This document shows positions 205 through 55,219 of a stretch of DNA of 64,000 bases, piece after piece. Under the pieces are notes generated by a model, which worked only from the letters and a program-made list of their open reading frames with translations, had not been told where the DNA came from and did no database searches. How positions within the stretch are numbered: position 1 is the stretch's first letter; the number at the start of each line of letters is the position of its first letter. Source of the stretch: Micromussa lordhowensis (taxonomy: Eukaryota > Cnidaria > Anthozoa > Scleractinia > Lobophylliidae); assembly GCA_964020085.1 (NCBI GenBank), contig OZ026606.1, positions 19,441,301 through 19,505,300 of the forward strand, written 5' to 3'. The translations under genes and the position numbers were made by a program.

Positions 205-410
205 CATTGAACTTGACATGATTACCCTTAGACAGGACTGTTAGAAATCATGCACTGCGGTCATATATAACTCGTGACCAACAGTGACCTTGGCATGATT
301 ATTGTGTAATCTGCGGTTATGACGTCACGAGCGCTGATTTCGAAAATTCACTGTAGCTGAGGCTTTCGGCCAATCAGAAAAGAGTTAGAGAGTTGAATGT
401 ATAATAACAA
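205..410. repeat. Dispersed repeat copy abutting TRAF exon
   Basis: This stretch matches 18454-18628 closely. The shared blocks are a CTTGACATGATTACCCTT start, a TATGACxTCACGAGCGCTGATTT middle and a CAGAAAAGAGTTAGAGAG end. The match stops just past the 5' splice donor (412-417) of the TRAF exon, so an element end lies immediately inside that intron. Confidence 0.7.
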
Positions 411-417
411 TACTTAC

Positions 418-2341
418 ACTCATGTGATTGAAGACAACTTGATGACCGCAGTGAGTGCAGCGGGTCAACCTGTTGATACATTCAAATGAATGATCTGGTA
501 CTCTTCGCCTTTCTAATGATGCTCCGCAGCGCTTTGGACATGATACCTCGGCGTAGCTACAGATATCTTTGTGTCGCTAAACGAAGACGAAACAAAACTG
601 ATTCATAAAAGTTATGTTCAGTTATTAAGTTCAAGTTCAAGTTCATTTATTCACACTATTCAATTACAATACAACAACAATAAAAGATAAAAAAGAAGTA
701 AAAAGCAGAGCTGATGATACATTGAGCTAAACATAACAACGAGAAAAGTGTGTAGCAGCCAAAGGAGCAAAGCTTTCGAGTTGGCTGCTACCACAGTGAG
801 TGCAGATATTATTAGTATGAGTTAACAATTTTGTATGAGTTAACAAAGAAAACATGGTGGTATAAGGCTTTTGCTGGTCCCTGTTACGTTGAGTTACGTT
901 CTTAGTCTAGTTTCATTTAGGCTTAGTGTAAATGGCGGTCTACCGACAAATCATGATGAAGCGGAGCCAAATGCAGACATAAACTCTTGTACCATTATAC
1001 CATGGAAACAGGTGCAAAGAAAAATGGACATTCAACTCAGATTTTGATTTTTTTTTCACGAATTCCTTTTGATCGTGGGAAGGACATAACTAACTGGCTG
1101 CGGTGAACACCACTGCATTGAATTGTGCATTATATAAAATAGAAGTTTGTTGATCCTCCAATGAGATCTTTGTAAAATGGAGTTGGTGATTGAAATAACA
1201 CCCAGGATGACTGTTCATCAGCTAAAGCCGCTAAAGAATTGCCACAAGTGGATAAAAAAGTATTCAGATGAGGCTCACCTCTATCTCACTAAGTGGCCCA
1301 GTCCACTCGCACCCTTTCTCAAGGTTTGAACACAACACTTGTAAGCTAAGAATTTGCCTGTGGCAGCCATTGTCTGAGAAAACCTGAAATGAGAAAGACC
1401 AGCCGTTCATACAAATCCTACAGTCTCCTCTACAGTTATTTTTCAGGAATGTTACTCAACGCTCCCCTAAAGAAATGGTTTCTTTGGAGGAAGCGTTCCG
1501 TGAGCTGCGGATTGGAAGTAACTCAGCTTTTTAGCGAGCAGCCCTACAATTGAGAATTTCAGTCTATCAGTTGAACACGATGCCGATAGATTCAAACACA
1601 TTCCAATGATGTTGTTGCATACTACGCTCTTATCTACACGCTTAGTTATCAGTGAAGAGACTGTTAACAGAATGGAGATTTAAAAAGGTATAGACTACAA
1701 ATTAGTAGTGGGAATTAATATACCGAAGAGATAAGAGCATGGATTGAATCAGTGATTGTCTTACCTTCACTGGATCAAAGTTGAGGTTATCTAGTGGGCA
1801 TCGGGGCCTCTTGTTTCTGTGGATTTTAAAAACATATGAAAGATTTCTTAAACAAATGCCTGAACGACTAGGTTGAACTTTGATTAACTTCCCGATATAA
1901 AGAAAAGTAGCCATCCTTTTTTTCAATCAGAAATCATACATTCCATAGAAAGGTAGAAAACTTGGCTAGTTTAGAATTTGGCTCAATTTACAATTAAGAG
2001 TTAAATAAATGTCAATGCTTATCAAACAAGGAGGTGATACGAAAATTAAGAGTGAAGAAAATCGTCAAAACAGGATATTGGCTTGATGTACCTCATATTC
2101 TCTGAACTAGACAATAGAGAAATGTTTGACAATGAGTCTGGAGAATTTATAAGTCGATATTGAAAATGAGAGGGATAAGATGACAGTTACTGAATTACCT
2201 CAAAATCGGCTGCAAGCAAGTGCTGCACATACGATGTCCACAAGGTGTTATCTGAACCGGGTCTCGAAGAGCTATGAGGCAAATCGGACACTCAAAGGCC
2301 TTGTCGAGTGGCCCTGTGAACTTAACTTCGTATCCAGGCAT
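418..2341 (-). CDS. TRAF-family protein, 5' part (RING and TRAF-type zinc fingers), partial
   Basis: Four coding exons read on the minus strand: 2341-2199, 1816-1765, 1383-1279 and 576-418, all with GT-AG borders and joining in frame. The gene continues beyond the left edge. Exon 1 begins MPGYEVKF and encodes a C3HC4-type RING (CPICL, CGHRMC, STC) completed by RCPLD in exon 2, where Asp replaces the last Cys, as is common in TRAFs. Exon 3 gives the VFSDN..R.ILSL.V.C segment that links RING to zinc fingers. Exon 4 carries a TRAF-type zinc finger (CPKRCG ... H.F.C ... C.HCG). Known role of the family: cytoplasmic adaptors, often RING ubiquitin ligases, downstream of TNF/IL-1/Toll receptors. The coiled coil and C-terminal MATH domain are not in the window, so the subtype (TRAF2/3/4/6-like) cannot be set. 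Start choice: first ATG in the exon, just before the RING. Confidence 0.9.
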
Positions 2342-5768: not shown

Positions 5769-8700
5769 TTATTCCTGATGTTCTTTTTCTATCATCATAG
5801 GAACTGTTGTCACCACTTGGTTTTCAAACACAAATCTTTTGACTCTATCAAAAAGAAAGAGGAAAATGAAGAGAATTGCCAGGTACTGGATCCATGCCAT
5901 CTTGATAAGTTGCCAGAATCCTGGTCGGTACCTTATAATCAGGTTAAGGTTCTGTTTGAATTTGATGAGCCTTGTTTCAATGAGTCAGTTACCAATATCA
6001 TAGCGAGGGAAAAATATGGGCCATCTCCCACCCTCAGTTTAAATCCTGTCTATCATCTAGTGGTCAGGCTGCATGACTGACAATTCAGGCCATCTTTCTC
6101 CCTCAAGGGCAAATTCAACAAGAAGAACAAGGGGCAGCAAACAATATCACACCAGTTATAAATACATTAGCTAACTATGGGTTCAGCATCATCACACAGT
6201 AGCCATGTTTATCACGCGCATACAAGTTCTAGAGATTAGTGTGTGTCAACATCCATGCCCCCCCCCCCCTGCCAAAAACAAAAATAATTATATATTTCTA
6301 CAGAGTTGCCGGAGAGTAACACTTGTACCACAAGGGAGTTTCTGGGAATGAAATACTTTAATTAACAAGGCCAAGGCAATGATTTACAACAATCCCAAAC
6401 TTTTTGCTCTTACTATCTCCAGTAAACTTGGATCTTGAAAAGGATACATAATGGCCTCTTCTGGATAAAAGATAGTTCCTTGTATAACAAATGGCTGCCC
6501 TGCTGCTCGTCCACTTGTCCACACGGGGTGAAATGAGATATATTCTGTGGTGACTTCAGCCAAAAAGTAAAAAAAAAGATATAATAAAACAGTGGTAGTG
6601 TGCAGTGTATGTAATCTTGCTGGTATTGTGAATATGAAACCATATACTTTATTATTTCCTCCCAACTATGCTTTTCAGAATTGATTTACATTATATCAAG
6701 AATAGTCTAAAATTACATAAAGGGCTTAAAAATTACATCAAATGTTTAATAATGATAATAATAAGCACAATACTTATGCTAATAAAAATAACCCTGAACA
6801 ATATTTAATGATAAAATACAATACATTTACTACATGAAGTTCATGCCTCCCTTTTTACCTTCCTCTTGAACTTGCTTAGTGATATTATCACAAAGGACTT
6901 AAGAGCATGATAAAAAAGGTACATTGGGCTGTTTTGGTGCAACAGAAAGGTACCTTTATAAGGTCATTACTGTGTCTTGCATTATGACTATGGACTCAAG
7001 GGCGAGTTGACTGGTTTTCAGATAAGTAAGCACGTAAGATGGAACTAAACCACTGATGACAGTAGATGACTGTGTTCAACGCCAGCTGGGGTCACTGTGC
7101 TGTGCCATGGAAGGTGGGGTAACCTGCCAAAATGTGGGGTAGTGTGCACTGTAGAAACTGGAGTTATTAGCACCAGTACTGCTGTTCGTTTTGAAACGGG
7201 TGCATTTACGTTTTTCATATCATTATCAATAGTTAACCAGTGGGATTGCAATACATACCATTGCGTTGGACATAACTGGTAAAGACATCATACAAGTTAT
7301 ATGCCTCCACATTTGAGCTTGTACTATCAATAACTGACACCTGAAATTACAAATCAAATCACTGGTAAAACACCCCTGGGATGATCACTTGATAACAGGG
7401 AATAAGACACATGCCTCTTCCCCAAGTTTCTACTTCTCAGTAGTGATAACAACGACATGTAGAAATAGAATTGAAAATAGTCCTTAACCTGGGATAAACC
7501 AGTACTAGGAGAAGGCTATTATATGACTGTAACAAATTATGTAACTGGATCATACATATATGATACAATAGTTCTCATTTGTAATTACATCATAAACATT
7601 ATGAATTCCTTTGTGTGGTAAGGGCCCTGATTGTTGTAGGACAAGTTTTCCAACTGAAGAGAACTCTGCTCCTGCTAGAGGAGATGAGAAATGGATATAA
7701 GCCATGCTTTCCATCTTGAGTTTGACATATTTCTGAGGAGAAATAAAGACATGTATCGTTAAAGATGTTTCTTTAAGGTTACTAGTCTGACAGTTAAGTA
7801 ACTACATGAACTTCTGGCAAAGATGCTGTACAAGCTCTTAACAACTTACACAAATTCAGCAGTATGAAGACAGAAACACTTTTAATTAAGAAAAAGAAAT
7901 CATTTTCTCCGTTTCTATTGAAATGAGAAATGGTGTGGGAACATGAGCCATTACATGAGTGTTTCCAAAACTCTTTTGAGTTCTCCGAAACTTTCTTGAG
8001 TGCTTCTATGTAATTCTATATAATTAACAATATTAGAATACAGTGTATGAGCTTGAGATCTCTGTTTTTACAAGATAGTTAACAAGGGTGCAGCCCGAGT
8101 CAACTATAGAAATCGAGAGTGAATAATCTAACTGATTTGGTATAAATCTACTAGTTGAAAACAACTTGAGCTAAATCCCCTGGCCTTCACAGACACTTCA
8201 ATAAAAAAGCAAAGAAGCATCAGAGTATCCCCTAGGACCTATGTTAGTAAGACTTATATTTTACAGATATTTAGTAAAGTATAATGCATGGATTTAGCCA
8301 GTTCAGGTGGAACTCCTGATTGCAATAACTAACCACGCATGTACATGTAATTGTTTGAAGTGTGTGATTTCGCTTTCTTTTTTTACTTAATTTTAACAAG
8401 GAATATGTTGGAAGAAGAGTCAACAGCGCAGGAGTTCATTTGAGCCACAATTCTGCCTTTGCACGCACTCTCTCCTTCTCCCCAAGAGTCACAACCAGGC
8501 TTGAGCCCATGATCCAATCAAAAAACCAGACCTTGGTCAGTGGTCAACTTAAAAAAAACTGAGCCCACAATATGGTCACATAATACTGGTCAGTGGATAG
8601 CTTGTATTGACAGCTGTATTTAACGATAACATGGATGCCCAAAACCAAAGATGTGGCCTTGGTAATGGTGCTATTCTCTTGATTTTCAAGGTATATGGGT

Positions 8701-10108
8701 GTATGGACGTACATATGGATGTACATACATGTATGGACGGACATATGTACATACATGTACGGTCAGTCACGTGACAACCAAAAGTTTTTAGATCAATGGG
8801 TTACTAAATTTTCTAAGGTATGGGACTCTGGCCTTCTGCGAGCGCAGGAGCTCCGCTACTATACAGGTAGACGCTATCACTGAGCTGCCTACTCTCAACA
8901 GATGAGATAACAGATAACAAGCACAACTTATATATAAGAATTGTTTGTATAGTGCCACTTACATGAAGTTGGTAATCAAATATCAACATCAACTGTACAG
9001 AGTGTATTGCCTCAGAGTCTGTCAAGGGTATCTTAATATTGAAGTGAAGGCTGTCATATTTTCCATCCAGGTTATTATCTGTCTCCCAAGACTTTGATAA
9101 AAAAATGAAGCACTGTTAAGCTTAGGTGATGTTCACATTATTTATTATAGCAAAGATATCAGTGACGTCACCTATTGTTATTAATGTGCCAACCAGAGAA
9201 CTATTGGCTGGTGAAACAAAGAGCTCTTTTGTTTAACGCTTTGTACATTTAAATAACAAAAACAATGTTTGTAAACAAATATCTTCCCTATATGGCTAGC
9301 TCCGTGAGCGAGCAAGATGAACCAAATCCTGCATTGTGATTGACTACCCGAGCAGGGAAGATGGAGCTCTCTTGCCTGCTCAGGACTACCGGCTGTGTCC
9401 TGCAAGAAAAATTTCCCCAAAACCCATATGATATGTCCTTTTAGTTTATTGACCAAGCTTGGTTGGTTAAGATGGCTGGATATTAGCCTCACTCTTTTTT
9501 GGCAAGGTTACGGACCTTGACTCCATCTCGGTCCATAACTACACAAAAAACGAACTTGGTCAATATCCAACCATCTCCACCTCAGACTTGGTCAACAACC
9601 CATATATATATATATGATAATATTGAGCATAATGACTTTGCAAAAATGCATTATTTAGTAGATGTCAGCGATTAGAAAGTGTTAAGCTTATTACTCCTCA
9701 CCTTGATGAGTGGAATTCTAAGCTTTTGTTGCAGAAGCTGGTTAAAATTCTGGAAAGTGCTGTAGCCTAGAAACGAACCAGGGGTATTTCCTTGAACTAC
9801 CAGAAGGATCTCGTGTTTGAATCGAACGTCGGGTTGTTCTCTGTAAGTGCTTTCCTTGAGCCAAAAACCTGTGAGTTTTCGTGGCAAATGAGCAAGGTTA
9901 GTAAACAGTACGTTTAAATCAATGGAAAGCTACAAGCTTGGAAAACTGAGGCGTTCAAAAACGGCTTACCTTGTGTCACATAGGCAATGATCAGCGGCGG
10001 TATGAAGGTCAGAAAAATGACAAAGAACTGGAAAAGAGTCGCTCTGCTACAAATGTGAGTCTTGTACTTTTGCTGGACAGGATGGGAATGCACTACATAC
10101 ATCGCCAT
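5769..10108 (-). CDS. TMEM231: TMEM231, ciliary transition-zone membrane protein
   Basis: Exons on minus: 10108-9970, 9868-9702, 9091-8963, 7732-7589, 7340-7259, 6553-6448, 5931-5769. Together they make 930 nt and 309 aa; vertebrate TMEM231 is about 316 aa. Start MAMYVVHSHPVQQKYK matches the family N-terminus. TM1 is about residues 24-44 and TM2 about 265-283, followed by the conserved FVFENQVVTT tail. Between them lies the large extracellular/luminal region, with FWLKEST and EQPDVRF after TM1 and GRAAGQPFVI before TM2. Known role: a B9/MKS transition-zone complex member that keeps the ciliary membrane barrier; human mutations cause Joubert and Meckel syndromes. It is divergent from ADAT1, with 469 bp between the two ATGs. 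If the last intron is retained, the frame runs 64 more bases to a stop at 6384 and loses TM2. Confidence 0.95.
8690..8765. repeat. Simple repeat rich in GTACATA/TGGATG
   Basis: Degenerate repeats of TGTATGGACGTACATATGG type lie within a TMEM231 intron. The small open frames here are by-products of this low-complexity DNA. Confidence 0.7.
9289..9608 (+). mobile_element. MITE-like dispersed element, copy 1
   Basis: It begins TATATGGCTAGCTCC and ends near TTGGTCAACAACCCATA. It shares its body with 21961-22288 and 35356-35610: the GAGCAAGATGAAxCAAATCCTG block, the TTTCCCC block, and the GACTCC-TCTCGGTCCATAA block. It sits in a TMEM231 intron. No ORF of note, so probably a non-autonomous DNA element. 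Confidence 0.75.
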
Positions 10109-10577
10109 GTTGAAAATTACTCATGACAAGCGACACAAACTTCTATAAACAAAAATTCGCGCGTTAGAAAAATTGCATTTTCCTCCTTGAAGATTGAGCC
10201 CGCGATCGTTATTGGAAACAACAACGAAGGAAAACATTTCTTGGCATGGGAGGTGAGCCTCCAGTGCAATTATTTTAAGAAGTATAGAACGCAATTAGAA
10301 CAATTTGAATTTAGAAAAATACTGATGGTATTAAAACAAAATTGTTGGCAACAATCTAGTCTCTTGTGTAGCACATTGCTATTTTAGGACATGAAGTTTT
10401 ACCCAGACAAAATAAAATGTTACTTTACCCCTCTCCTCTTAGCTATCGTTTGCACAACTGGCCCAGTCCTTTGAAGTGGAGTCTCGTCCAAGATGGCCGA
10501 TGAAAGGTGGTCGTCGTTCAATGCTCCGTTTAGCTATATATAGACTTCTTTGTTGACCTCTAGCTCTTTTTTACTTC
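10109..10577. promoter_or_regulatory. Bidirectional intergenic promoter region TMEM231/ADAT1
   Basis: The only DNA between the divergent start codons of TMEM231 (10108, minus) and ADAT1 (10578, plus) is 469 bp, so both 5' UTRs and promoters must lie here. No clear TATA box is placed for either gene. The stretch at 10480-10560 (CCAAGATGGCCGATGAAAGG) contains a YY1-like AAGATGGCCG motif. Confidence 0.7.
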
Positions 10578-13500
10578 ATGGATTATTGGCAAGAAGATGT
10601 TAGTTTTGCCAACAAGGTAGCTCAGTTGTGTTGCGAACATTTCAAGACGTTGAACAAAAGAGGAAAACCTCAAGCGAATCATGAGTGGACACTGCTGGCA
10701 GCCATAGTTCTCGTACAGGAACAAGGTTTAAACTAGCGTTTTTTGAGTGTTCTAAACAGTTATTGTGACGAAGGAAATTGCCAGTAGGGGAAGGCCATCT
10801 TTATATATATATAGCTTATCTCTTGTCGCATGAACAAGAGAACGCTACAAAACAATTACCTCTGGCTTGTTCTGTCAGCTATTCACGTTTCACTCCACAT
10901 TTGATCTAAGCTAGTCGTTGTTTTTGTTCGATTAGATGATAATGATAAGCACCTGTCAGGGTACTCCATGGATGTGGTTGCCATGGGAACTGGTTCCAAA
11001 TGCATTGGAAGAAGCAAAATGAGTAATCAAGGTAAGAAGTTGTCCTAGAGGGTACCCAAGAGAACACAAGTGACAGGTGGTGTGAATGAAGCTTTGAGTC
11101 AACACAGTATCCTTCTGCCCCAGAAAAAATACTCAATCATATAAATGTTCTGATCATAAAATGCTCCCCCAATCCTTTTTGTAAAAGATAAGACCCTCAG
11201 CTATTGGGGTTGCCTATTGATTTACAAAACTAAACTCCCTGAACAATTCTAATTCAACTCCTTGTAACCTGAAAATTTGCAGGCGTAAATAGTAGACTAT
11301 GAGTGGTCCCTCTTTCGCTTACTCCATTGAGCGAGACCGTAAATAAACCACGAGGAAAACTGGCCGTGTGAATTGCCCAGGAGTTCATGGCCATTTTTTT
11401 CTTGCAGTTTTCTTTTGCGTCCCGCACAATGGACTAAGCGAAAGAGGGACTTCTTGTAGGCTACGCAAATAGGGACGTGATAGGGGAGGTGCTCACTCTC
11501 TGTTTGCCCCCCGTTTCCCCCGTACTCTTTCAGGTACTATTTTAATTTTTTGTGACTAGATCCAAGTCCTTAACATAGAAAAAAGAACACCATTATTGAT
11601 TACAGGTTTCCCCTGAGTGTCTTTTGAAAAGAGAATCACGGCTAACAGTGTTTCATTTTAATCTCAAAACCAATAAACATTCTAATATCTTTTTAGGAAT
11701 CATTTTAAATGACAGCCATGCAGAAGTGATTGCCAGGAGAGGTTTTCTCAGGTTTGACCTGCTGACATTTGTAATTTAAATTGAGTTACAAGCCCTTAGT
11801 ACTCGGAAGGCGAAAGCCTTCATCAGGCCAATTGGTCCATACTGCTGGTCAGGAGCTTATCCTGGTTTCTGTAGCATGAAGCTGCTGGGACTATTTCTAC
11901 TCCCCCTAGATGGGGATGTTAGTCAATTGCAGGGTTTACCCCCAGCATTATTTTGTTTATTGTTCTTTTGCTGGTACATGTACCCATCAGCACAGCTAGA
12001 TGCCCAAGAAAAAAAGGGCAATGATCCTGACCAGGGCTTGAACCCAGTGCTAAGAGGAAAAGGCTAATACATATAATTTACACACCAGAAAGTGTGATAT
12101 AATGTAACTCTTGTATTATTAATTTTTCTCTCCACTAGATATCTTTACCAGCAGCTGCAGAATGCATACAATGAGCAGCCAGGTGTATTTCTTTTTCAGG
12201 AAGAAAGCAATTTATGTGCTCTTAAAAGTGGAGTGTCCTTCCACCTTTTTACTTCTCATACACCTTGTGAGTTGCTTTATAAGACTTTAACTTTTTTACA
12301 CTCTCTGATCACCACAGAGGGTTCAATTTCCATTTAAATTATAATATGACTGACTTTTGCATAATCCTTTGCTTGATGATATTATTGCCCTCGAGTGAAG
12401 CAGGAGGGCGATCTTTGAGCGATGAAGTCAGGAGCATGGGCGACGTTTAGGAAAGTATTATTGGAAAGGACTTTTTCAGAAAGTCTATCAACCAACAGTT
12501 TCTTTCGAGGAACTGTGAGGGTTGTCCAATACTCTGACAAATTTATGCATAGCATTGTATTGTCAGTATTATATCCACATAACAATAGATTAATTAACAA
12601 TACAATACAATTAAGAATGATGCAATACAATAGAATACAGTACAATGCTATGCATAAATTTGTCAGAGTATTGGAGAAGTATGGGAGCTGTTCTTCACAA
12701 TAGCTGACGATGCAGTGAGATACATGTATCTAGAGTATCTTTATTTTTGAATTACGCAAACCATTAGTCAATGAAAAATAAATGTAATATTGAATCAAGT
12801 CAATAATTATTATTGACTTGATTCAATATCAATTTTCATATTATTTAAATGGAGTTAATAATTTTCAAAAATTCTTCTCATGAGTGCAATTCTTATCTTT
12901 TTTCTAGGTGGTGATGCATCAATATTTCCCAAAGCAGAGGAAGATGACACTTTGGTTGTTCCACCTTTAAAGAATCAAAATCTCAAACCTCAAAAGAAAA
13001 AATGCCTTTCTTGTCATGAAGTGATAAGCCCTCCAAAGAAAATTTGTTTAGAAAATGACATAGCTTCCAATAATTCATTGAGAGATTGTGATCTTAATTC
13101 CGAGAGATTGATGGAAAGGTCAGATATAACACCCGAGGTTAAAAAAGACAACGATGCAAAGTTATACCTTCAGGAAGGTGGCCACAAACATGATGGAAGC
13201 ATTGCAGAAGTTCCTATGGAGCTGTTAGATAAAAGACTAACATGTTGTGGTAATCTGAAAAATGTGGACCATAGCAGTAAGGATCAGGAAGAAAAAGCAA
13301 TAAAATCAAATCCAGAAAATATTCATGATGACATTCCTGAGAGCTTTGAATGTGTACTTGATGGTATCAACAAGCAACAAACTAATATTAAACAGTACAA
13401 GGATATATACAGGACTGGTGCAAAATGTGTTCCAGGTGGTAAACAAGACCCTCGTCAGTCTGGTTCAGCATACCACACTGTCGGTGTTTTGCGCACTAAA

Positions 13501-25614: not shown

Positions 25615-28600
25615 ATGGCGGACGAGGAAGAAGAATCGTCGTTAGAACTCGTCCTTCAAAGGCACAAAAAGGAGGGGAAAGAACTTCAAGGTATTTTGCA
25701 TTCTTGATATCTTAACTTTTCAATGCTAGTGTTGTATCATTTTGATCGAATTTCTACCATTTCCAAGATCGCTACATTGTTTTGCATTTTGCTTCGCAGC
25801 ACCTAGTCCAAACACCTGGTGCTGAAGCTAATGCTCAACTTTTGTTTCGTCAATGTTGAGTGAAGACTTAAATAATTTGCGAACAGAAACAAAGTCTTCT
25901 TTAAATTTTCTTACGATTTTGTCCCCCTTGATTTATTGTATCTGTATCAAAACAACGATCTAAATTAATTATTGTAACCTTATAATTAAGCTTACTTGTA
26001 AAATGTAAGCTTTTTATTTTGAATAAATTTTTATTTAAGTGTTGTTTTGCAGCCAAAATCCAGTCGTTGAAACATTCTGTTCCAAAGGGTGACAAAAAGA
26101 AGAAAAAGGAAGTTGCTTTAGAGATTGCAAAGCTGGAGGAAGAATTAACCAACAGACACAAGAAAGAACTTGAAGTATTGGAAAATGGTTTGGCAGTGAG
26201 TGTTCTCAGTGACTCATCTTTCATGTTGTAACAGTAATGGAATAGGACTTGTTTCTTCCTCATTATAAGAACGAAATGTAGCGGATTACCACAATTTAAA
26301 GTTAGAAATAGTGAGGGCACAAAGATATTTTTTTCCGTATTGGTTGGAATAATTCAAGCGTAATTATTTGCACTCATCAGTGGACAGAGGCACTGCAGGA
26401 TTGTCCAAGATCAGCATACCAGGACTGTGCTTTAGAAGGAGCGTGGGTGCCACATGTGACCAACTGTTTTCTGTCTGTTGACTGTTTTCATTTAAGCTTA
26501 TGTGCTCGGGCACCCAGGATTTCATTATTAATTAGGAACTTTTGAGCTCCTCAAAATAGTTATTTTTCTTAGACCACAGCCTTGTAAACATTGATCTTGG
26601 GCAAGAGCAGACTTAACAGCATCAAATTCAGTATGCTAATCATTAGACCACAGTATCATCCACAAAATGAACTGTTTCTGTGTTGTTAGCGTCTTAGAGG
26701 AGGTAATTCAGCATGCCATGCATGCAATGGCCAGGCCAGCCCCGGTATGAAAGTGTGGATAAAACCTGATTCTTCAGTTAAATTACCATCAGTTAAACCA
26801 TGACTGGTGTGATAAGAAAATGATTCTGACTCCACTCACACGAGACATTCAATGTGAAAAGTTTATTGAGGATGAGGCAGTCAGCCATGAGCTGTGCGAT
26901 TCAATGTATCGTAATATCTATTAATTATTCAAATGTTTACCTCACAAAACTAACTAAAGATTGCAAAATTCAGAAACTGTGCTACGCCAGATACGAAAAA
27001 TCACTAAAAGACCACCCTTTAGATGTGGCCAAAAAACATGTGGAAACGTATTCCTCATCTAATGCAGCAGCACGAGACCCCGAGGAAAGGGCACTCTACA
27101 TCTAATTTACACTAATTGACGAAATCGAAAAGTAATCCTAAAAAAAAAAATAAAATAAAATAAAGCGGGCGAACACTCTGACTGAGCGACCTAGAATGAC
27201 TTAGATCTCCCGCCAAAAACCTTAAATAGTACTTAAGCAACCCGAGATGCACCGCGAACCTCTCCAACGTGCCGTCAGAATAATAATTTCTGACTAATTC
27301 GTCCCTCAAACGTCAGAAATTACATTAGTTGTCTATCTGTAACTTTTTAAAATTTTTGTTTAGGTGAGTCAGCCGTTATTAAATTTTTGATTTGTAGAAA
27401 GAAAATAGTCAAGGAGAACGTGTTACCAAGGAGATAGAAGCCATGTCTCTAAATGCAGATAACAGTGAATCACAATCAAAACTTTCAAAGGCTCAGAAAA
27501 GAAGGGTAAGTTTTTCATTAAATACAGAAGTAATTGACTGATTTAAGCCAAATTCTCAAGATGATTATTGAAAAATTATAAATAAACAGTTTTTAAGCTG
27601 TGACATACTGGTAAACACCTATGGGTAATAGTTATCTTTATATCATTTTGTGTTTTTATCATTTCAAGGACAAAAAGGCTGCTAAAGAAAGGGAAAGAGA
27701 TGAAAGAATTGCTGAAGCTGAACTGGAAAATGTGTACAGTGCACGCAATGTGGAAGCTGAGAAACTCAAAGAAATCTTAGCGGCTAAATGTTTATCTATA
27801 AAACAGGTATAAGCCCCTCTATGTGTATTTCCGATGAAATCAAAGTCAGATGTAACGGTTACCACTGAAAAAATGAAGCACTCAAGATTGAAGTGAAGAG
27901 TTAACAGTTCACATAATAAGATGGAATATTGACCAATAATATTATATTAAGAACTAATTTCCAGAACAAAACAGTTATATAGCTCATTATATTATGCAAT
28001 GAGATAACTTTTCGGCCTTGAATTACACTCACATCTGACTAAACTGTCAGCCAATAATTCCAATCCATACAACAAAGATCTGCTTAAAAAATCAAAGATT
28101 TGCAAAAATATGCGACAAAAACAAAGTCTTGAGGTACCCATAGAAAAGCTCAGGTATGTCGGAATGGGTAGCTGTTCCAGAATATACCCAATTGTCTATG
28201 CTACCTGAAGGAAGGCCAACAGAAATTTTAAGGAGCTAAGCAACTTTTATTATTATAAGCTAAAATTTTTAAATTGCTAAATTTCCTGAGGGTAATGGAG
28301 GAGGTTCAACTCAAAAACCTGCCATTGGAGGCATAGGGATATTTTCTTGATGAACACAATATTTGATGGATAACAATTTGAAACTAGCTCTGTGCCTTGC
28401 AATTTATAATCATCAACTATTGTCACGATTTTGTTCTCTCTTCAGATCACTCCAGATGGAAATTGGTATGTAGCATTATTTGAAGATCTCGTTTTGTGCA
28501 ATTCCTTGCTAAGGTGATCAACATTTAATTCAAACGTAGTGCAATATTTTAACTAAAATATTGTGTAGGAAAGCGTGGATGGACATCTGGATGTAACGTA

Positions 28601-31600
28601 AAATCCAATCTTGTAATATTGCAAGTTTTTTCCAGCTTATGTTTTTATCATTTTTGTCAGCTTGTATAATGCTGTTGCTGATCAACTGTCCAGAAGAAAT
28701 CAACAGGTATTTTTAATTTATAGTTGTAATCAGAAAGCCCTTCCAGCTGTGACCTTTTAAAGTGCCTATAACCCCAGAATTTTTTTTGGCTAAGATGAAA
28801 CTTAGACAAACACACAAAAAGAATTGGCCAAAATTTTCGGTTTGTGATATTTTTAAGGGCTTTAAAAATTAACATAAAGTAGCTGAAATTTGATACATGA
28901 CCGAGCTGGCGAGGAGCCTGGGTCTATTACTGGGTTGACGTCACAGACTGTTTTGCATGCATGTTTATAAAGAGTTAAATGCTATGTAAATGATTATGTG
29001 ATGTCAACCCAGGAATATACCCAGACCCCTCACCAGCTCGGTCATAACACAAAAGATATCAAATTTCAACTACTTTCTGTTAATTTTTAATTAGCCCTTA
29101 AAAATATCACAAACCGAAAATTTTGGCAAATTCTTTTTGTGTGTTTTTCTAAGTTTCATCTTAGCCAAAAAAAATTCTGGGGTTTAAAGGAATTCATCAA
29201 ACAGGAGAGATTGTCTTGATCTGGATTATCACAACTAACATTAAACGACATGTAGGTGTGCAATTAGTAAGGAGAATTTCTATTTCCATTTGGGGATAAT
29301 CAACAGCTAAGGATTTTTCCAAGGCAATAATTATAAAAAATATTGTCTTTTAGACTGAGATGCAAACATTAAGAAAACTTGCATCAGATTACATGCTGAA
29401 CCATCGAGATGACTTTCTGCCATTCTTAACAGATGCAAAAACGGGTCAATTGTATACACCAGGTAAGCAAGCCAACAAACTTTAAAAATATAATGCCATT
29501 GTTGTATTATTGTCTTTTATTTTTTTTTTGTAAATGCAATTTTATTTACAGGACGAAGACTTGCACCACCAATACAGCACTAATATTATTTACATAATTA
29601 TATACTATACTTACACTGTACTTTCTATTTACACTATACGTAAATTTTATACTCGCACCACTGTTTCTTACAATACATACAGTTTGTATATTACAATACA
29701 ATAAATTATCACACTTATTAAATTACAGTTGGCCTGGATATAATGCTCATATATACCAGGGGGGGGGGGGGGGGGAGGGGGTACATAAACCTATAAGTTG
29801 TAAACATACATATTACATTTTACTTCTCTACAACACACTTAAAAATAAATTATAATGCTACACAAAGGTTACTTTTCAGCTTGACTAACTGCACAACACT
29901 AAAAAATACTTACAATACTACTGATTAAACCTATGTTGTGTTATTGCCATATATATTAAGCATGTGGGATTGATGGGTCCTTGAAAGCAAGAGAGAAATG
30001 TAGTAAGCATCTGAACTGATAATTAACCAATCATAGAACAGGTTTCAACTGGGTGTTGTGAAACCTAAAGTAAAACCTAAGTAATCACTAAATGTAGAAG
30101 ATCTAGAAAGACTCTGGGAGCAAGGTGGTCTGGCCAATCAGTGCAAACAAAAGCCAAAAACTCATATAAATAATTTATACCAGTTGTTTTTTGCATTGTT
30201 TGCACTGTATGCAATGTGAGAAAGCAGTATTTAAAATAAAAAAATGCAAATAAAATATTATGCAAGAATGATACAAATTTTCAGATAATTGTTTGTTAGT
30301 TGTGTATAAGCTTAATTTAAAATTGGATAATTTTTTGTTGGTTGTTTATAATGTTTATTTACAATTATTGTTAATTATTCACAACTGTTATTATTAAATT
30401 ATTATTATTATTTGCAATTATCGTAAATAAACATTAAAAGTTACAACCAGCGAAACAATTATTCAAAAATTTGACTTTAATCTGCGGATACAAACAAGTT
30501 ATCGGTTACACGCGAGCCACCAATGGAAAGCTGAATATAGGCTGAGAATTAAGGACTTTCATCTTGTTAAGCAACCGACTACCAGCATCTGTGCTAGCAA
30601 GGTTTATTCAAGGGACGGCGGAAGACAAATCACCGGCAATGAGTTGGTTCTTCACCATTTTAAGACCTTTCGCGGAAAACGTGCGGGAAACCAAAAAATG
30701 GCTGGAACACTGTACAGAACAAAAACCATCGGAGAAGTAAAATACGTTTGTCTCGACTTCGGAATTAAAGATTTTCTTTCCATCAGAATTGATGGCACAG
30801 TCTGGCTGGCGTTTCTCTGCTGGTGCGATAGTGATTTTCTTGAATGAAACCTTTGTTTTCATCTGAATCAAACAGTCTTCCTCTGGCCTGGGTTGTTCGA
30901 AAGGTGGATATAAACGCTATTTACCGGATAAATCATTGTCCAGTGGATAGCGTGGTTTGTTAATTAACACTTATCCGCTGGATAGTGATTTATTCGGTGG
31001 ATAGCGTTATCCAGCCTTTGAACAACTGGGGCCTGGAGTAAATGAATGCTATCGATCGTCATAAATATTTTCTTGAATGAAACTATTGATTGTCTCGGTT
31101 AAAAACCAAGTTTGTGATGACTTTGGGTATGAAAATGTGGAAACACTTAGAATTTAGCAGAGATTGCTATTACTCTCTTTTAAGCAACAACGAGGGAAGT
31201 GATGGAGCGAATATTAACAAGATGAAGCTAGAGGTCTTGGACGTTTCGCCTCCCAAAACGCATTCCTGCCTTAAAAAAGATGGTTTCACCGAGAAAACGC
31301 AGACCTCGAAAACTCACCCGTTCAGTTGCCGCATGTTTTCTCTATGTTCCTTCCATAGAAACTCGTACTTTACCTTCAGGCTTCTGAGCTTTTCTAAAGC
31401 CTCTATATAAGTTGATCTTTGCTCTCAAATTTACCGGCCATCTGTGAGGTAACTTCTGCGATTTCAGTGTCCTTTTCTTGAACGATAATCGTTATTTCAC
31501 GTTGATCTGGCGTTATATTACTGTCGAAAATCTTCATTTGTAAGATGCGAAATTGTTGAAAATCTGCTCTCAGCGACTGGCGTTGTCTTTTCTCAACGAG

Positions 31601-33348
31601 GCTCGATCCTCTCTAAAAATTTGTATCTGTTGATATTGTTCGTCGATGACTATATCCTTATCTTGAGTAAGGTAGCAGCTTCTACTGAGATGCATTTTTA
31701 GGAATACTTCGGAGTGCTCGGAGCTCAGTCTGTTGCTCTTAATCACGTTGCTTTGCTGAAGCCGTTGTATTGCTTGGAGAAGAACTTGATCTTGAATCAG
31801 ATCAGCATGTTGCTGGATTGTTTTTTGCAGATTGAACACGTTGATATCCGCTCTAACGAAACTTGTATAAATTGATATAAATTGGAAGAAAAAAGTAATC
31901 AAATATCGATTGAATGTTTTTTGGTCTCTGTAATATTGCCAAGCATGGGTTCTACGATCCCTCTTTGGCTGCTCCGTGTTTTTCGCACTCCTCAAGAAAT
32001 CAAGATTATCGTTAAACTCCAATTCATTCTTCAATTCATTCCAATTCAATTCAACCCTAACCCATAAAGAAGGAACCGGCCACCTGAAAAGGTCTACCCC
32101 GACTAATGTGGCTTTCTCTCTAAAACTAGCAATTTTATAATGGTGATAATTTTCGGGCCCACTTTTGGTTTATGCTGACATGTACATTGCTAATAAACTA
32201 AATCAAATGATATTGAATTCCTCTCCGTTGATAGTCGTTTTTTGTTATTCTAAAATACTTATACCATTGTTGCTTTGGTATGTCTATATCCCCGGTAGAA
32301 GTTCTCAAACGAATGCGCTCTATGTGCGAAGAAAGATCCCAGATTCGGCCGAGTGAATCAAAACAAGTCTTCAATAATCTGAGTTTTTGACGTAACAATT
32401 GTAATTTGATGACGGGTGTTGTATGAGGGACCTGCACGAGCCAGTACTCAATGCGATAAACCACGAAAAACTCAATTTACTTCACTTTTGGCTAGTTTGT
32501 TGAAAACTTTTCTTGTTTGATTATGAAGCTGCTAAGATGCGTGCGCAAAATGTTTGCGCCAGGAACGCCTTTCCCCCTTTTGACAATCCCTTAGGTCATT
32601 ATTTACCAGTTAGTGTAGTGAATTTCGAAAGAAAGATATTCGACGAAGCACGACCTTCAGCTCGGCACATGACGAAATTACGGGCTCAGAACTAAGCTGA
32701 CAAGTAGCCTAATAGCAAACTCTCTTCTTGGGGAAAGGAAAAAATAATGTGCATCAATGGGAAAGGCCTGTTTTTCACTTTTCCGCGATCAGCAAGCTCA
32801 CTGCATTGTGATCAGAAGAGGTTCTTTCTCTTCTTTCTCGTGATGCGCTGCTATTTTCTTAGAACTGTCTTTAAAAACAATAAATGACGGTAACTAGGGA
32901 GAGTTTATATTTTGAGCTTGCCCTTCAGTGGCTGGCTACTAGCAGACTGTAGTGGTATAAAATATAGTGTTAATAACTACTTATTAACCGAGAGTGAGGT
33001 CTTGCGGGAAAATCTCAGCCGACACCATCGCTCGGTCAAACAATATTTGAGATTTCCCGTAAACGTTCGAGGTTAATAAGTCGTTTATTATATGGCTTTG
33101 TGCATTGTTTTTGCAAGCCTGTAATCAGCCCATAGGCATTACGGGAGAATAATGCCATAACTACAATTAGCCAATCGGCGCGCGCGTTATATCGGCCACA
33201 AAAGCAAGCATACAATAAATATATCTTATTAGACGTTTTGGTGTGTAGTATCGCTGTATATTTTTACGAGTTGTGCGGTATTTTGACGAGCCCGTAGGGC
33301 GAGTCAAAATACAAACAACGAGTAAAAATATACAGCGATACTACACAC

Positions 33349-33380
<32 letters not shown>

Positions 33381-34994
33381 GATTTCTTTTCCCAAAATTC
33401 TGACTTGCCAAGGTTTTGAACTTCACGCGGCCGGGAGGAATGTGACGAGTACAAATATCGTGTGATATTTGTACTCTACGAAGCAGAGTTGGATAATAAT
33501 ATATTTTAATCCAACCCTTGCAGATCAGTTCGTCCATTATTGTGAAGAAATCGCCAGCACGGCCACATGGGGAGGACATCTGGAGGTTTGTTGCTGCGTC
33601 GTGTCAATAGAATTCCCGAGATTTCAAAGCAATAACTCGGCCACAAGTCAAAGGCCCGTATTTTTGCGCGAGGCACTGTCGGCGTTTCGATTAACGTGAT
33701 GTGTACTACATTTAATAGAACTTTAGCAAGTCATGTTTGTTTTCACTTTGTCACCGACAAGAGACGTCAAAGAAACGATTAGAAGTCAATTATGCATGTC
33801 AGAATTGAAAGAACTTCTTCTGGATGGGTTAAATAGGTTAAGGTGAAGTACAGGTTATGCTGAATTACATGTACTTGTCACTCTAGAGAACAGTACAATC
33901 GAAAGAAATCGGAAAACCGAGTCAGCTGAGCTCGTCCTCGTCGGACCGGGGAGAGCGCTCGACTCGCCCGGCTTTTCCGAATTTTTTTCGCCCTTCCACC
34001 CCACTTAGTAGCCTGGCCACAGGCTATATCAGCCATGCCAGCAGACCAATTTGATATTCCCGATATTGGACTGGAACTAGCTTGCACTGGAGGCTCATGC
34101 GGGGAAATATCATTAAAAAGAGCAGAAACTTATCACCTAGAACTAGGTGATAAGCTTCTGAAAGAGATACATGTCATTTGCATTTGAAAAGACCCCTTTC
34201 ATTAGCCTCAGTTGCAAGCTAGTTCCAGTCCAATTCTGAAAATACGAATAAAGTCTATTGCTATTTCAGCAGTTGATACATTATCTCGTTCTGTTTTCCC
34301 AATAGATCCAGGCTTTGTCTCAAGTTCTGAAGATGCCAATAGAGGTTTATCAAGCTCATGCTCCTATTTTACGAATAGGAGAGGAATATGACTCGCAACC
34401 AATTTCGCTCTCGTAAGTGTTGTTATCGAACCAGAAAGAGCTTGCTAGATCATTGCTTCTTGTTTAGACTAGGACCAAGTAACGGCCTCCTGCCAGTACG
34501 AACGAGGCAAAAACTGAAGGACACGGTAGTCAGTCAGCTGTCAAGTGAATGAAAATTTAATGAAATTTTCTTCATTGTAACTGTATCGTTCTCTTCCGTT
34601 GTTGAGGCGAACAAGGAAGAGAATCAGACGTTAGGGATTTTCAGTTTCAAAGTCCCTGCTTGACGACTACAATCTCTTAAAAAAGTGTTCACTCGAAGGA
34701 CCCTGCAACGCTCTTTACGGTATAGAATTAATGCTACCTCGTCCCCAGGCGTCTCTTTGGTTGGAGCGCGGTGCGCGTAGCAAACCATCAAGCACCGCGC
34801 TCCTTGTTTCCCGCTCTTCGCCGACGAAATGCAACGACGCCTGGGGAGAACGCAGGAGTTTTGGAGAGTTTACCATCTGTCGAGAAACGGAGTAATTGGT
34901 TTTGATTTTATCTTCTAGGTATCATCTCCATGCGTACGGCCTTGGAGAGCACTATAACTCAGTCATCCCTGCTGAAGAATGCTTTGAAAGCTAG
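25615..34994 (+). CDS. OTUD6B: OTUD6B, OTU-domain deubiquitinase
   Basis: Exons: 25615-25690, 26053-26195, 27398-27505, 27669-27806, 28446-28465, 28661-28706, 29354-29462, 33524-33585, 34306-34412, 34919-34994; 885 nt, 294 aa (human 293). Residues 1-150 are a charged coiled coil (LQRHKKEGKELQAKIQ, KLSKAQKRR, ERERDERIAEAE). The OTU catalytic triad is visible: Asp159 and Cys162 in TPDGNCLYNAV and His281 in GLGEHYNSV. Role: deubiquitinase linked to proteasome function and translation-initiation complexes. Oddities: exon 5 is only 20 nt, and the intron after it splits the catalytic Cys codon (TG|C). Intron 7 is 4.06 kb, mostly repeats plus an antisense coiled-coil remnant. The promoter interval is shared with U4 copy 3. 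Confidence 0.96.
28753..29190. mobile_element. Long inverted-repeat element in OTUD6B intron 6
   Basis: Two arms of about 160-180 bp are inverted copies. The left arm contains AACCCCAGAATTTTTTTTGG, TTAGACAAACACACAAAAAG and GACCGAGCTGG; the right arm contains their reverse complements. The loop is roughly 100 bp. It would form a long, imperfect double-stranded RNA in the OTUD6B pre-mRNA. Foldback/MITE type. Confidence 0.8.
29758..29781. repeat. Poly-G tract in OTUD6B intron 7
   Basis: A run of G broken once by A (GGGGAGGGGG-type), flanked by AT-rich sequence. It could form a G-quadruplex on the sense strand. Confidence 0.8.
30885..31036. mobile_element. MITE with GGTTGTTCGAAAGG ends
   Basis: Left end CCTGGGTTGTTCGAAAGGTG, right end CAGCCTTTGAACAACTGGGG (inverted), with internal inverted GATAGCG repeats. 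In OTUD6B intron 7. Confidence 0.75.
31290..32050 (-). pseudogene. Antisense coiled-coil gene remnant inside OTUD6B intron 7
   Basis: The minus strand reads as a long coiled-coil-like protein in three successive frames: 32049-31570 (159 codons, with QKTIQQHADLIQDQVLLQ and HLSRSCYL), then a shift to EKRQRQSLRADFQQF through KFESKDQL, then a 2-base shift to IEALEKLRSLKVKYEF until a GT donor-like site near 31300. Glu/Lys/Gln/Leu composition continues across the shifts. This is best explained by a decayed gene copy, or by exons I have not resolved. A neighbouring 88-codon frame at 32464-32198 has similar basic, leucine-rich composition and may be an upstream part. I do not recognise the family. 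Confidence 0.4.
33235..33364. mobile_element. Large palindrome with about 46-bp arms
   Basis: The left arm starts CTTATTAGACGTTTTGGTGT and continues through TATCGCTGTATATTTTTACG. The exact inverted sequence closes at 33364. The central part (TTTTGACGAGCCCG / GGGCGAGTCAAAA) is also inverted. Upstream, 32985-33110 carries another element of GAGGTCTTGCGGGAAAATCTCA type that reappears near 39040-39140. Confidence 0.8.
34066..34233. mobile_element. MITE with 21-bp inverted ends
   Basis: It starts TTGGACTGGAACTAGCTTGC and ends with its inverted copy TGCAAGCTAGTTCCAGTCCA. The centre has a CACCTAGAACTAGGTG palindrome. In the OTUD6B intron before exon 9. Confidence 0.85.
34741..34858. mobile_element. 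Short inverted-repeat element in last OTUD6B intron
   Basis: The ends GTCCCCAGGCGTC and GACGCCTGGGGAG are inverted, and an internal GGAGCGCGGTGC / GCACCGCGCTCC pair is also inverted. Confidence 0.75.
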
Positions 34995-35355
34995 CACAAC
35001 TAACCTCAATTTAATACACATCGACTACAAAACACTTATTTCAAATGCATGTATTGAATGTGATTGTAATATAGCACCCATTGGTTCACAAGTCTGTACA
35101 ATAAATAACTGCAGCAATAGTTCATGTTTTATGTTGTCTAAAAATTACCCAAGAATTCAAAAAGGGCCTGTTTGAATCCGTCATTGTAGTATCATAAAAA
35201 ACACGAAAGGCTGTGTTTGATCATACTTCCAAACACCGAGATGAGAGTTGAACATACGACGCATAGCACAGTATTTTTGACGACATTCGAGGTGGGCAGA
35301 TACAACCGAGTGCCAAATCACAAATCGTTTACAAGGTTCTTTATAATAGACCTTA

Positions 35356-35610
35356 TTATATGGCTAGCTCCGCGAGCGGGCAAGATGAATCAAATCCTGC
35401 GCTGTGATTGGCTACCCGCTCGGGACTACCCGCCTTGTCCTGCAAGAAAAAATTTCTCCAAAAGCCATAATAAATCCTTTATTAACCAAGCTTGTTCGGT
35501 CAAGATGGCTTGATATTGGCCTCGTTCTTTTTTGCGTGTATATGGACCTCGACTCCGTCTCGGTCCATAAACACGCATAAAAAGACCTCACACTTGGTCA
35601 ATAATCCATA
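35356..35610 (+). mobile_element. MITE-like dispersed element, copy 3
   Basis: Shares GGCTAGCTCCGCGAGCGGGC, the CAAGATGAATCAAATCCTG block and the TTGGTCAATAATCCATA end with copies at 9289 and 21961. Shorter in its right half. Confidence 0.75.
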
Positions 35611-35617
35611 CATATCA

Positions 35618-35815
35618 CAGTTGTCTGCTTCGAGACCTGGCCTTTGAATGGCAGCAAAGCTGGAGGTGAACTTGTTTTGGTACAGATCTCTCAGCTTTTG
35701 TCATGCTAATGCGACTAGTTAGCATCGGAACTTGATTAACACAACAAAAGCAGTGAGGTCTGTATCAAAACAAGGTCGCCTCCATTGAAAGTCCAGGTCA
35801 CTGAGCAGACAACTG
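35618..35815. mobile_element. MITE with long inverted ends (CAGTTGTCTGCT)
   Basis: Left arm CAGTTGTCTGCTTCGAGACC ... CTTGTTTTGGTACAGA, right arm CTGTATCAAAACAAGGTCG ... GAGCAGACAACTG, inverted with some mismatches over about 80 bp. Confidence 0.8.
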
Positions 35816-36982
35816 GAAAATGGTCTATTGGCCAAACAATAGCTAAACAACACAAACAATGTCCCTGGGCCTAAGAACAAACGAGGTGCAGATCAACAAG
35901 AACGAATCAAAATAGAGTTGCAGCTCAGCTGTTTTAATGGTTAGTTTACTTTATTTCCATGATCTGTTATTCCCCACTGAAGCTGCAAACACAACGAGTA
36001 AGATTACGACGGACAAGAGAATAATATTTATTGCACGATATACGCGGCAACATCAGGGTAATTAAATAACTCGATTAAAATAACTAATTTTGCTACAGCA
36101 AATGTTAGGTTCATAATATTATATAGCTACACGATTGATACTCTACTAATCCAGCTTACTGTTCCAGGAACAGATTAAAGGTGATTGCTAGTCCGTTGTG
36201 CGCACTCTCAAGTTCGTTTACGTTTTTTGTTTTGTTTCATGTACGACGTCACAAAATGTAACATTTTGCAACTACTTACACGAAGTAAATTCATAGTTTT
36301 ATGTCAACGGATGCGAAGCTTTATGCTTAGTTCTGTCTGACATAACTAGATGAAACAACTTCCTAGCTGTAGAAATCAAAGAAACTGTAGGAAAAAGAAT
36401 TCAAAATGTTTCGAAGATAAGGTATGTGGTTCGCAACAAATAACAGATTCACATTCCATTGAGTGAGACTCAAACTTTGGGTTTTGAGGCTGCGCAGTAC
36501 GGACTGGAAATCAAAGCGCTACTTTCTACAGAAAACGCAACCTGCGATCAGGCGCTCTTTTTTTCCTCGGCAGAGTTAGAGGGGAGGAAAAAAAAGAACG
36601 CTATGTAAAAAAAACACGCCTCATCGCATGCTACAGAAAACGTCAGATTGACGCGAGATTTTTTTATCGTTCTCTGAAATAAGCGAAAACAATTATTAAT
36701 GTTTGTCACATTACATTTCGAAACCCCATCGAAAAGTCAGAGAAAACTTTACAGTGCCGTCCGGACTGGTCGTCAGACATAGTATGACACAGATTTAAGT
36801 GAATCTCCCTTTCTATAAAGAGAAGTATTGTCCTGAATCCTTTTGTGCATTTGTTTGTGCTCTTGAGCATCCACTTGAACTTGGGTCATCTTTAATCAAT
36901 TAATCAATGACCATCATCAAATGGATTATTTTTTTGTCATTCCTTTTCAATCTGCGAGTATATTGGCAAGGTCAAGTGTATT

Positions 36983-49945
<12,963 letters not shown>

Positions 49946-50098
49946 TGTAGTGCACGAAAGGAAGCCCTGCTGTGTCCTGAATGCTGCCCTCTGATTGGTC
50001 GACAGTTGGTTAAGCCGCCAAAGCGCCTGCGCCGCTCGTGCAAAAATCACCCGCGAAAACATGCTCGCGATTCCGTGAAAATCGTGAAGGCAGCACAC
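49946..50098 (-). CDS. KARS1: In-frame 5' extension of KARS1, candidate mitochondrial presequence
   Basis: Upstream of the cytosolic start the same frame stays open for 51 codons with two further Met codons, at 50098 and 50062. From 50062 the extension reads MFSRVIFARAAQALWRL and continues through TNQRAAFRTQQGF. It has several Arg, no Asp or Glu, and an alternating hydrophobic/basic pattern, as expected of a mitochondrial targeting helix. Animals use one KARS gene for both cytosolic and mitochondrial enzymes; humans make the mitochondrial form by alternative splicing. Here an alternative start in one exon could do it. Translation of the extension is not proven by sequence. Confidence 0.65.

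Positions 50099-52257: not shown

Positions 52258-55219
<2,962 letters not shown>

Follow-up and report, generated by a model that had tools for sequence, protein, structure and literature searches.

Closest to the locus described here are the microsyntenic blocks of planulozoans, which are reported as sets of at least three unrelated orthologues common to a cnidarian and vertebrates, with no more than five intervening genes and an order that may change (Robert et al. 2022, PMC8851819). According to the passages of that paper on block gain and loss, the planulozoan ancestor had 162 novel microsyntenic blocks, compared with 17, 19 or 25 in shuffled genomes, and vertebrates lost 85% of the planulozoan-novel blocks. 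Thus, one that is retained in vertebrates is uncommon. The same passages state that the vertebrate ancestor kept 70 inherited blocks, fewer than the 110-124 expected by chance in a shuffle test, which counts against reading a cluster such as the present one as ancestral. Blocks of four genes are reportedly rare across deep cnidarian splits: between anthozoans and medusozoans, blocks of at least four genes are reported for no species pair, and Nematostella and Rhopilema are reported to share seven blocks when as many as five genes may intervene (PMC10719294).

The window that we analysed, a 64,000-nucleotide stretch of the coral Micromussa lordhowensis, is part of a 25.8-Mb contig in a 580.8-Mb genome. 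Spliced models place its genes in the order TMEM231(-), ADAT1(+), GABARAPL2(-), three U4 genes, an OTUD6B-like gene(+) and KARS1(-). The order and strands of TMEM231, ADAT1, GABARAPL2 and KARS1 given in the original prediction are borne out by these models and their Pfam domains. The three U4 genes and OTUD6B that it placed between GABARAPL2 and KARS1 were recovered as Rfam U4 matches and, by Pfam, an OTU-protease gene on the plus strand. All four gene models run from ATG to stop with GT-AG introns throughout; position 5769 is exactly the TMEM231 stop, and position 50098 lies 36 bp past the first modelled KARS1 ATG. TMEM231 belongs to the ciliary transition zone, ADAT1 is a tRNA deaminase, GABARAPL2 acts in autophagy and KARS1 is a lysyl-tRNA synthetase.

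The homologue-guided model of TMEM231 (5769..10108, minus strand) has seven coding exons and encodes 309 aa (Pfam TM231, E=7.8e-119, 396.8 bits). ADAT1 (10578..15581, plus strand), modelled with the Oculina ADAT1 as a guide, has eight coding exons and encodes 557 aa (Pfam A_deamin, E=5.3e-88, 296.1 bits). For these two genes the Pfam scores are those of the corrected models and the protein-search identities those of earlier, faulty versions: Nematostella TMEM231 is 68% identical to a coral model that lacked three residues and carried 11 intron-derived residues, and the ADAT1 homologue search used a first model with one exon missing and the next misread. GABARAPL2 (16259..20277, minus strand; five exons, 117 aa) matches Pfam ATG8 (E=3.9e-50, 168.8 bits). 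Among the best 60 of its 112 matches to solved structures, GABARAPL2 ranks first (197 bits), above GABARAP (160-163 bits), and on this basis we assign the coral Atg8 to the GATE-16 type. KARS1 (36983..50062, minus strand; 16 exons, 620 aa) contains tRNA-synt_2 (E=3.2e-90, 302.8 bits) and tRNA_anti-codon domains. Its model begins with an N-terminal leader and contains another in-frame ATG further inside (MADAGG...), and the lysine--tRNA ligase of Desmophyllum is 90% identical to it.

GABARAPL2 and KARS1 are 16.7 kb apart. Between them lie three U4 snRNA genes on the plus strand (23227-23365, 24288-24426 and 25324-25462; Rfam RF00015, 125.7-127 bits), whose array (23227..25462) consists of tandem units of ~1.05 kb that are 89-93% alike. 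They are followed by the OTU-protease gene (25615..34994, plus strand; Pfam OTU, E=5.8e-18, 66.1 bits), which, by its family, we take to be OTUD6B; its eight exons have tentative splice sites, modelled without a guiding OTUD6B homologue.

We read the coral cluster as an ancient microsyntenic block, an already known class. It shares four orthologues with chicken, orthology being judged from domains and best matches, and the intervening genes are one recognised protein gene (OTUD6B-like) and the three U4 genes. In the published chicken table, chromosome 11 carries KARS (20108842-20121014), ADAT1 (20121004-20145653), GABARAPL2 (20146831-20154681) and TMEM231 (20154497-20159550), which gives the vertebrate order KARS-ADAT1-GABARAPL2-TMEM231, with overlapping records for the last two genes (PMC6339939). 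All four genes also appear together in a cattle table, and the rows of a blackcap table include TERF2IP, KARS, GABARAPL2 and TMEM231, with ADAT1 not included. For GABARAPL2, placement outside the coral was compared in these published vertebrate tables only. The block is present in cnidarians and bilaterians alike, represented by coral and chicken; further anthozoans and one starfish show part of the linkage.

A single inversion, of the ADAT1-GABARAPL2 pair, and the OTUD6B and U4 genes separate the coral layout from that of vertebrates, for which the strands are assumed. The claim that one inversion separates the coral from human 16q23.1 is exact for the human layout with the strands that we assumed for the four genes. 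However, 10 of the 192 possible arrangements lie within one inversion, so the fit is weak by itself and adds little. By eye, no further human 16q23 gene was recognised in six-frame translations of 100 kb on each flank (22.5 kb of it N), among the frames listed of at least 85 aa, or at least 60 aa for the ~33 kb adjoining the window on each side. The flanks include frames that are presumably cytochrome P450-like, receptor-like, armadillo-like and transposon-like.

Linkage in other species was assessed from shared contigs and locus-tag numbers; large contigs show linkage, not adjacency, and contig sizes are those of 90% clusters and may belong to a cluster member other than the species named. 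Of the 10 species that could be compared for ADAT1 and KARS1, 4 show linkage (Oculina, Desmophyllum, Xenia and Pristimantis). They share a contig five tags apart in Oculina patagonica (ACROYT_G011701 and ACROYT_G011706) and a 5.16-Mb contig in Desmophyllum, and a single 14.8-Mb contig of Xenia carries ADAT1, TMEM231 and KARS1. The two genes are apart in the other six species found in both lists: on chromosome-sized contigs in Ptychodera (39.8 vs 45.6 Mb) and Owenia (37.3 vs 34.9 Mb), on 4.0- and 3.6-Mb scaffolds in Dendronephthya, in Paramuricea and Limulus, where contigs are short, and in Nematostella, whose two contig sizes are probably those of separate assemblies. TMEM231 and ADAT1 are linked in five of eight comparable species and apart in Lymnaea, Nucella and Paramuricea. 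They share one contig in each of Nematostella, Dendronephthya and Asterias rubens, and in Coilia grayii their tags are ACEWY4_011339 and ACEWY4_011341. Only two of six species carry TMEM231 and KARS1 on the same contig. Planulozoan-novel blocks are by definition missing from choanoflagellates, sponges, ctenophores and placozoans; of these, the placozoan Trichoplax appears once, as an ADAT1 record (contig 1218393), and neither the TMEM231 matches nor the 120 KARS1 matches listed include it. These counts leave out amphioxus (ADAT1 from hybrids and B. lanceolatum, TMEM231 from B. floridae and B. belcheri), Biomphalaria (differing species names), Pocillopora verrucosa (kilobase contigs only) and the 'Seg' gene set (TMEM231 Seg5184.1, KARS1 Seg562.11). 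Based on these frequencies, and on the separation in Ptychodera and Owenia, the linkage of TMEM231 with ADAT1 appears old, with KARS1 as the looser member of the block.

We favour, with a probability of about 0.7, the reading that these unrelated housekeeping genes already formed a cluster in the ancestor of cnidarians and bilaterians, since altered by one inversion. Could the four genes have gathered by chance or convergence? The 10 of 192 arrangements within one inversion would allow it, and some three-gene blocks reportedly arise in shuffled genomes (PMC8851819). In contrast, no four-gene run arose in 300 simulated shuffled genomes, and three-gene runs averaged 0.12 per genome; the parameters were assumed rather than measured (14 chromosomes, 25000 genes and 7000 one-to-one orthologues, with a same-chromosome chance of 0.8 in 300 runs and of 0 in 100 runs). 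Under these parameters the four-gene clustering is strongly beyond chance, and linkage is seen again in other species, which makes a chance origin extremely improbable. The originally proposed pre-bilaterian block stands in so far as the cluster is real and its linkages return elsewhere: TMEM231 with ADAT1, and ADAT1 with KARS1, in further anthozoans and in vertebrates, and TMEM231 with ADAT1 in one starfish too. The recurrence is consistent with an origin that predates the cnidarian-bilaterian split, the only origin that we argue for. The weaker part is KARS1, which is off the ADAT1 contig in Ptychodera, Owenia, Dendronephthya and others and, in the coral, is separated from GABARAPL2 by the U4 genes and OTUD6B. 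A TMEM231-ADAT1-GABARAPL2 core may alone have been ancestral, with KARS1 joining separately in corals and vertebrates, or with its linkage being due to chance. We consider this unlikely, since KARS1 adjoins ADAT1 in the chicken table and shares its contig in Oculina, Desmophyllum, Xenia and Pristimantis, and losses are a likelier explanation than two separate arrivals only a few genes away.

Most likely, then, the four genes were already grouped before the coral-vertebrate split. The cnidarian-bilaterian ancestor would have had TMEM231, ADAT1, GABARAPL2 and, more loosely, KARS1 as neighbours. After the split the ADAT1-GABARAPL2 pair would have inverted once, in one lineage or the other. OTUD6B and the U4 array may have arrived before KARS1 in corals or departed in vertebrates.

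Shared regulation, or regulatory DNA interleaved among the genes, was originally suggested to keep them together, and we found no evidence for either. The start codons of the divergent TMEM231 and ADAT1 genes are separated by 469 bp (10109..10577; CpG o/e 0.88 vs 0.65 in the window), and ADAT1 and GABARAPL2 are convergent across 677 bp (15582..16258), where a promoter-like CpG signal is absent (CpG o/e 0.17). These gaps leave little interleaved DNA. Genomic regulatory blocks, whose bystander genes contain conserved non-coding elements, resemble the coral block in that genes stay in place for long; they differ in having a developmental target, and to our knowledge none of the four genes is a developmental regulator. 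No such regulator was found among the open frames and models scanned with Pfam in the window. The persistence of unrelated genes, and long introns in the 16-exon KARS1 that could house enhancers, speak for shared long-range regulation or interleaved enhancers. Against them stand the short gaps and a chromosome-level study in which sea anemones are reported to be without TADs and CTCF and to have enhancers near their genes (PMC10719294). Such regulation is an improbable explanation, and long-range control would not be needed. Breaks in the head-to-head or tail-to-tail gap would often damage a promoter or a 3' end, and the likeliest reason for persistence, though at less than even odds, may be that there is little room for harmless breaks. 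Slow decay would account for the remainder. Unrelated genes that stay together in coral and vertebrates offer a clean case for asking what holds genes without long-range enhancers.

The 469-bp region is a candidate shared promoter. In bidirectional promoter pairs transcription starts are less than 1 kb apart; the divergent coral TMEM231/ADAT1 pair resembles them in its start-codon spacing, and chicken TMEM231/GABARAPL2 in its overlapping records. They differ in that the TMEM231 neighbour is ADAT1 in the coral and GABARAPL2 in vertebrates (strands assumed), so no specific pair is conserved. The proposed inversion would itself have broken the TMEM231-facing edge, so no fixed head-to-head promoter pair keeps the block together. 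Conceivably, though at somewhat less than even odds, the breakpoint fell inside the divergent TMEM231 promoter, which swapped partners (ADAT1 in corals, GABARAPL2 in vertebrates) while the block survived. If true, the block would have tolerated a natural re-partnering of a promoter, and this would set remaining together apart from having a promoter in common.

In the main texts of the papers searched we found no report of microsynteny with GABARAPL2 and ADAT1, and the block may be reported in supplements. Papers that name ADAT1 with GABARAPL2 or TMEM231 appear, from the portions of their text available, to be association, selection, cytogenetic, expression and network studies.

Spliced models of the Micromussa lordhowensis window, built from exon seeds picked by hand and splice-site scores (with a homologue guide for ADAT1 and TMEM231), together with Pfam domains confirm the order and strands claimed for four genes: TMEM231 (5769-10108, - strand; 309 aa; TM231, E=7.8e-119), ADAT1 (10578-15581, +; 557 aa; A_deamin, E=5.3e-88), GABARAPL2 (16259-20277, -; 117 aa; ATG8, E=3.9e-50) and KARS1 (36983-50062, -; 620 aa; tRNA-synt_2, E=3.2e-90). 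All four run from ATG to stop, and every intron is GT-AG. The source assembly comprises 580.8 Mb in 1383 contigs, and the window occupies C12:19441301-19505300, the contig C12 measuring 25.8 Mb. By bit score the window's Atg8 protein belongs with GABARAPL2 (197, vs 160-163 for GABARAP). The nearest named protein matches are stony corals: KARS1 is 90% identical to Desmophyllum pertusum, and early, partly faulty models gave 62% for ADAT1 (Oculina patagonica) and 81% and 78% for TMEM231 (Pocillopora verrucosa and Orbicella faveolata).

Between GABARAPL2 and KARS1 lie three U4 genes and a + strand OTU-protease gene (OTUD6B-like, 25615-34994; Pfam OTU, E=5.8e-18). The U4 array (22900-25620, +) is a tandem duplication with units of ~1.05 kb; units 1 and 2 share 93% identity across 1.1 kb, and unit 3 matches at 89-91% across ~614-620 bp. 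Since this last match ends near the OTUD6B start codon, the last U4 gene is placed ~150 bp upstream of OTUD6B.

We take the human strands to be TMEM231(-), GABARAPL2(+), ADAT1(-) and KARS1(-); the printed vertebrate tables are without strands. Computed with these strands, a single inversion of the ADAT1-GABARAPL2 pair accounts for the coral-human difference among the four genes, as originally proposed. Ten of the 192 arrangements of four stranded genes lie at most one inversion from human, so this fit by itself is expected about 1 time in 20. In the available parts of the sources, chicken chromosome 11 reads KARS, ADAT1, GABARAPL2, TMEM231, CHST6 by coordinates (PMC6339939), a cattle table contains all four genes plus neighbours (PMC8446201), and a blackcap table has KARS, GABARAPL2 and TMEM231 alongside TERF2IP and CHST6, with ADAT1 absent from it (PMC7173969).

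The main weight of the argument is carried by the clustering, not by the inversion fit. In 300 simulated genomes with assumed gene numbers, in which local order was shuffled and chromosome-level linkage retained, four neighbouring orthologues never fell inside a stretch of six genes; the corresponding rate for three was 0.12 per genome. Shuffles in the literature give a comparable picture: the part of PMC8851819 available gives 162 inferred new blocks (at least 3 genes) for the cnidarian-bilaterian ancestor vs 17, 19 or 25 after shuffling. It also has the vertebrate ancestor keeping 70 inherited blocks, below the chance values of 110, 120 and 124, which is a warning for any single block.

Linkage of ADAT1, TMEM231 and KARS1 in other species was judged from protein records (using the species name, the locus tag where given and, as contig label, the contig size per 90% cluster), for species named among the best 120 of 2726 ADAT1, 111 TMEM231 and best 120 of 7995 KARS1 rows; amphioxus, Biomphalaria, Pocillopora verrucosa and the 'Seg' gene set were left out. 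Among the rows listed, ADAT1 and TMEM231 lie on one contig in five of eight species (Nematostella, Dendronephthya, Xenia, Asterias rubens and Coilia grayii) and are separate in three (Paramuricea, Lymnaea and Nucella). Among the best 120 rows per gene, ADAT1 and KARS1 are together in 4/10 (Oculina, Desmophyllum, Xenia, Pristimantis) and apart in 6/10 (Nematostella, Dendronephthya, Paramuricea, Limulus, Owenia, Ptychodera). TMEM231 and KARS1, again among the rows listed, share a contig in Xenia and Bombina (2/6) and are separate in Nematostella, Dendronephthya, Paramuricea and Periophthalmus (4/6). Trichoplax was found in the ADAT1 rows only, among the rows listed for these three genes. The near-adjacent locus tags of Oculina (ADAT1 011701, KARS1 011706) and Coilia (TMEM231 011339, ADAT1 011341) place these pairs close together, if tags follow the chromosome.

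The separations differ in weight. The Nematostella KARS1 record (1.5 Mb contig vs 16.1 Mb for ADAT1 and TMEM231) probably comes from another assembly and carries none; those in Paramuricea and Limulus, on short contigs, carry little. The Ptychodera and Owenia contigs with ADAT1 or KARS1 are chromosome-sized. The available text of PMC11175523 counts 23 chromosome-scale scaffolds for the 1.16 Gb of Ptychodera, so KARS1 and ADAT1 probably occupy separate chromosomes in this species. Both TMEM231-ADAT1 and ADAT1-KARS1 linkage recur in anthozoans and vertebrates, the former also in a starfish, patterns most simply explained by a common ancestor that had the cluster; KARS1 would then have departed in the sampled hemichordate and annelid lineages. 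The main rival, that KARS1 arrived separately in corals and in vertebrates, we consider unlikely. The predicted pre-bilaterian age is likely on this recurrent linkage, with the membership of KARS1 less sure. The block is worth recording, since the available text of PMC10719294 reports zero microsynteny of at least 4 genes across the anthozoan-medusozoan split; no earlier report of it was found in the literature searched, which excludes supplements and most subscription journals.

Regulation had been suggested as what maintains the block, a view that we find unsupported: in the available text of PMC10719294, sea anemones are without TADs and CTCF and have short enhancer distances, making long-range regulation unlikely in a cnidarian. 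TMEM231 and ADAT1 are head to head, with starts 469 bp apart and an elevated CpG ratio (0.88 vs 0.65 for the window); ADAT1 and GABARAPL2 are tail to tail, with ends 677 bp apart (CpG ratio 0.17). The inversion must have broken the DNA separating TMEM231 from the gene divergent to it, and so changed the partner of TMEM231, which is ADAT1 in the coral vs GABARAPL2 in vertebrates on the strands assumed above. Because this partner changed, a fixed promoter pair is not what keeps the block together. In genes this closely packed, many breaks would do harm and decay would be slow, a candidate passive cause that would suffice.

In the first KARS1 exon (49908-50062, -), a leader, MFSRVIFAR..., precedes a further 12-residue sequence in the same frame, a layout that is the same in Desmophyllum and similar in Xenia and Dendronephthya; the KARS1 model has an internal in-frame ATG (MADAGG...). 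The layout suggests mitochondrial and cytosolic forms made through alternative start codons; human KARS, in contrast, reportedly uses alternative splicing. Behind KARS1, PQ-loop exons (53510-54759, -; Pfam PQ-loop) presumably belong to an SLC66A2-like gene; human SLC66A2 lies at 18q23, which may be partly related to 16q through an old genome duplication. A TRAF-type zinc finger fragment (E=8e-8) occupies 388-576 (-). At 59338-60053 (+) lie two exons carrying prenyltransferase alpha (PPTA) repeats, which we take to be RABGGTA-like; the second has a near-identical copy at C12:19560295. A large repeated stretch (C12:19510691-19605300) has matching frames at ~57.5 and 61 kb offsets and three units spaced 6.05 kb, whose 911-913-aa frames have identical first 110 residues; the repeats reflect either segmental duplication or assembly haplotypes.
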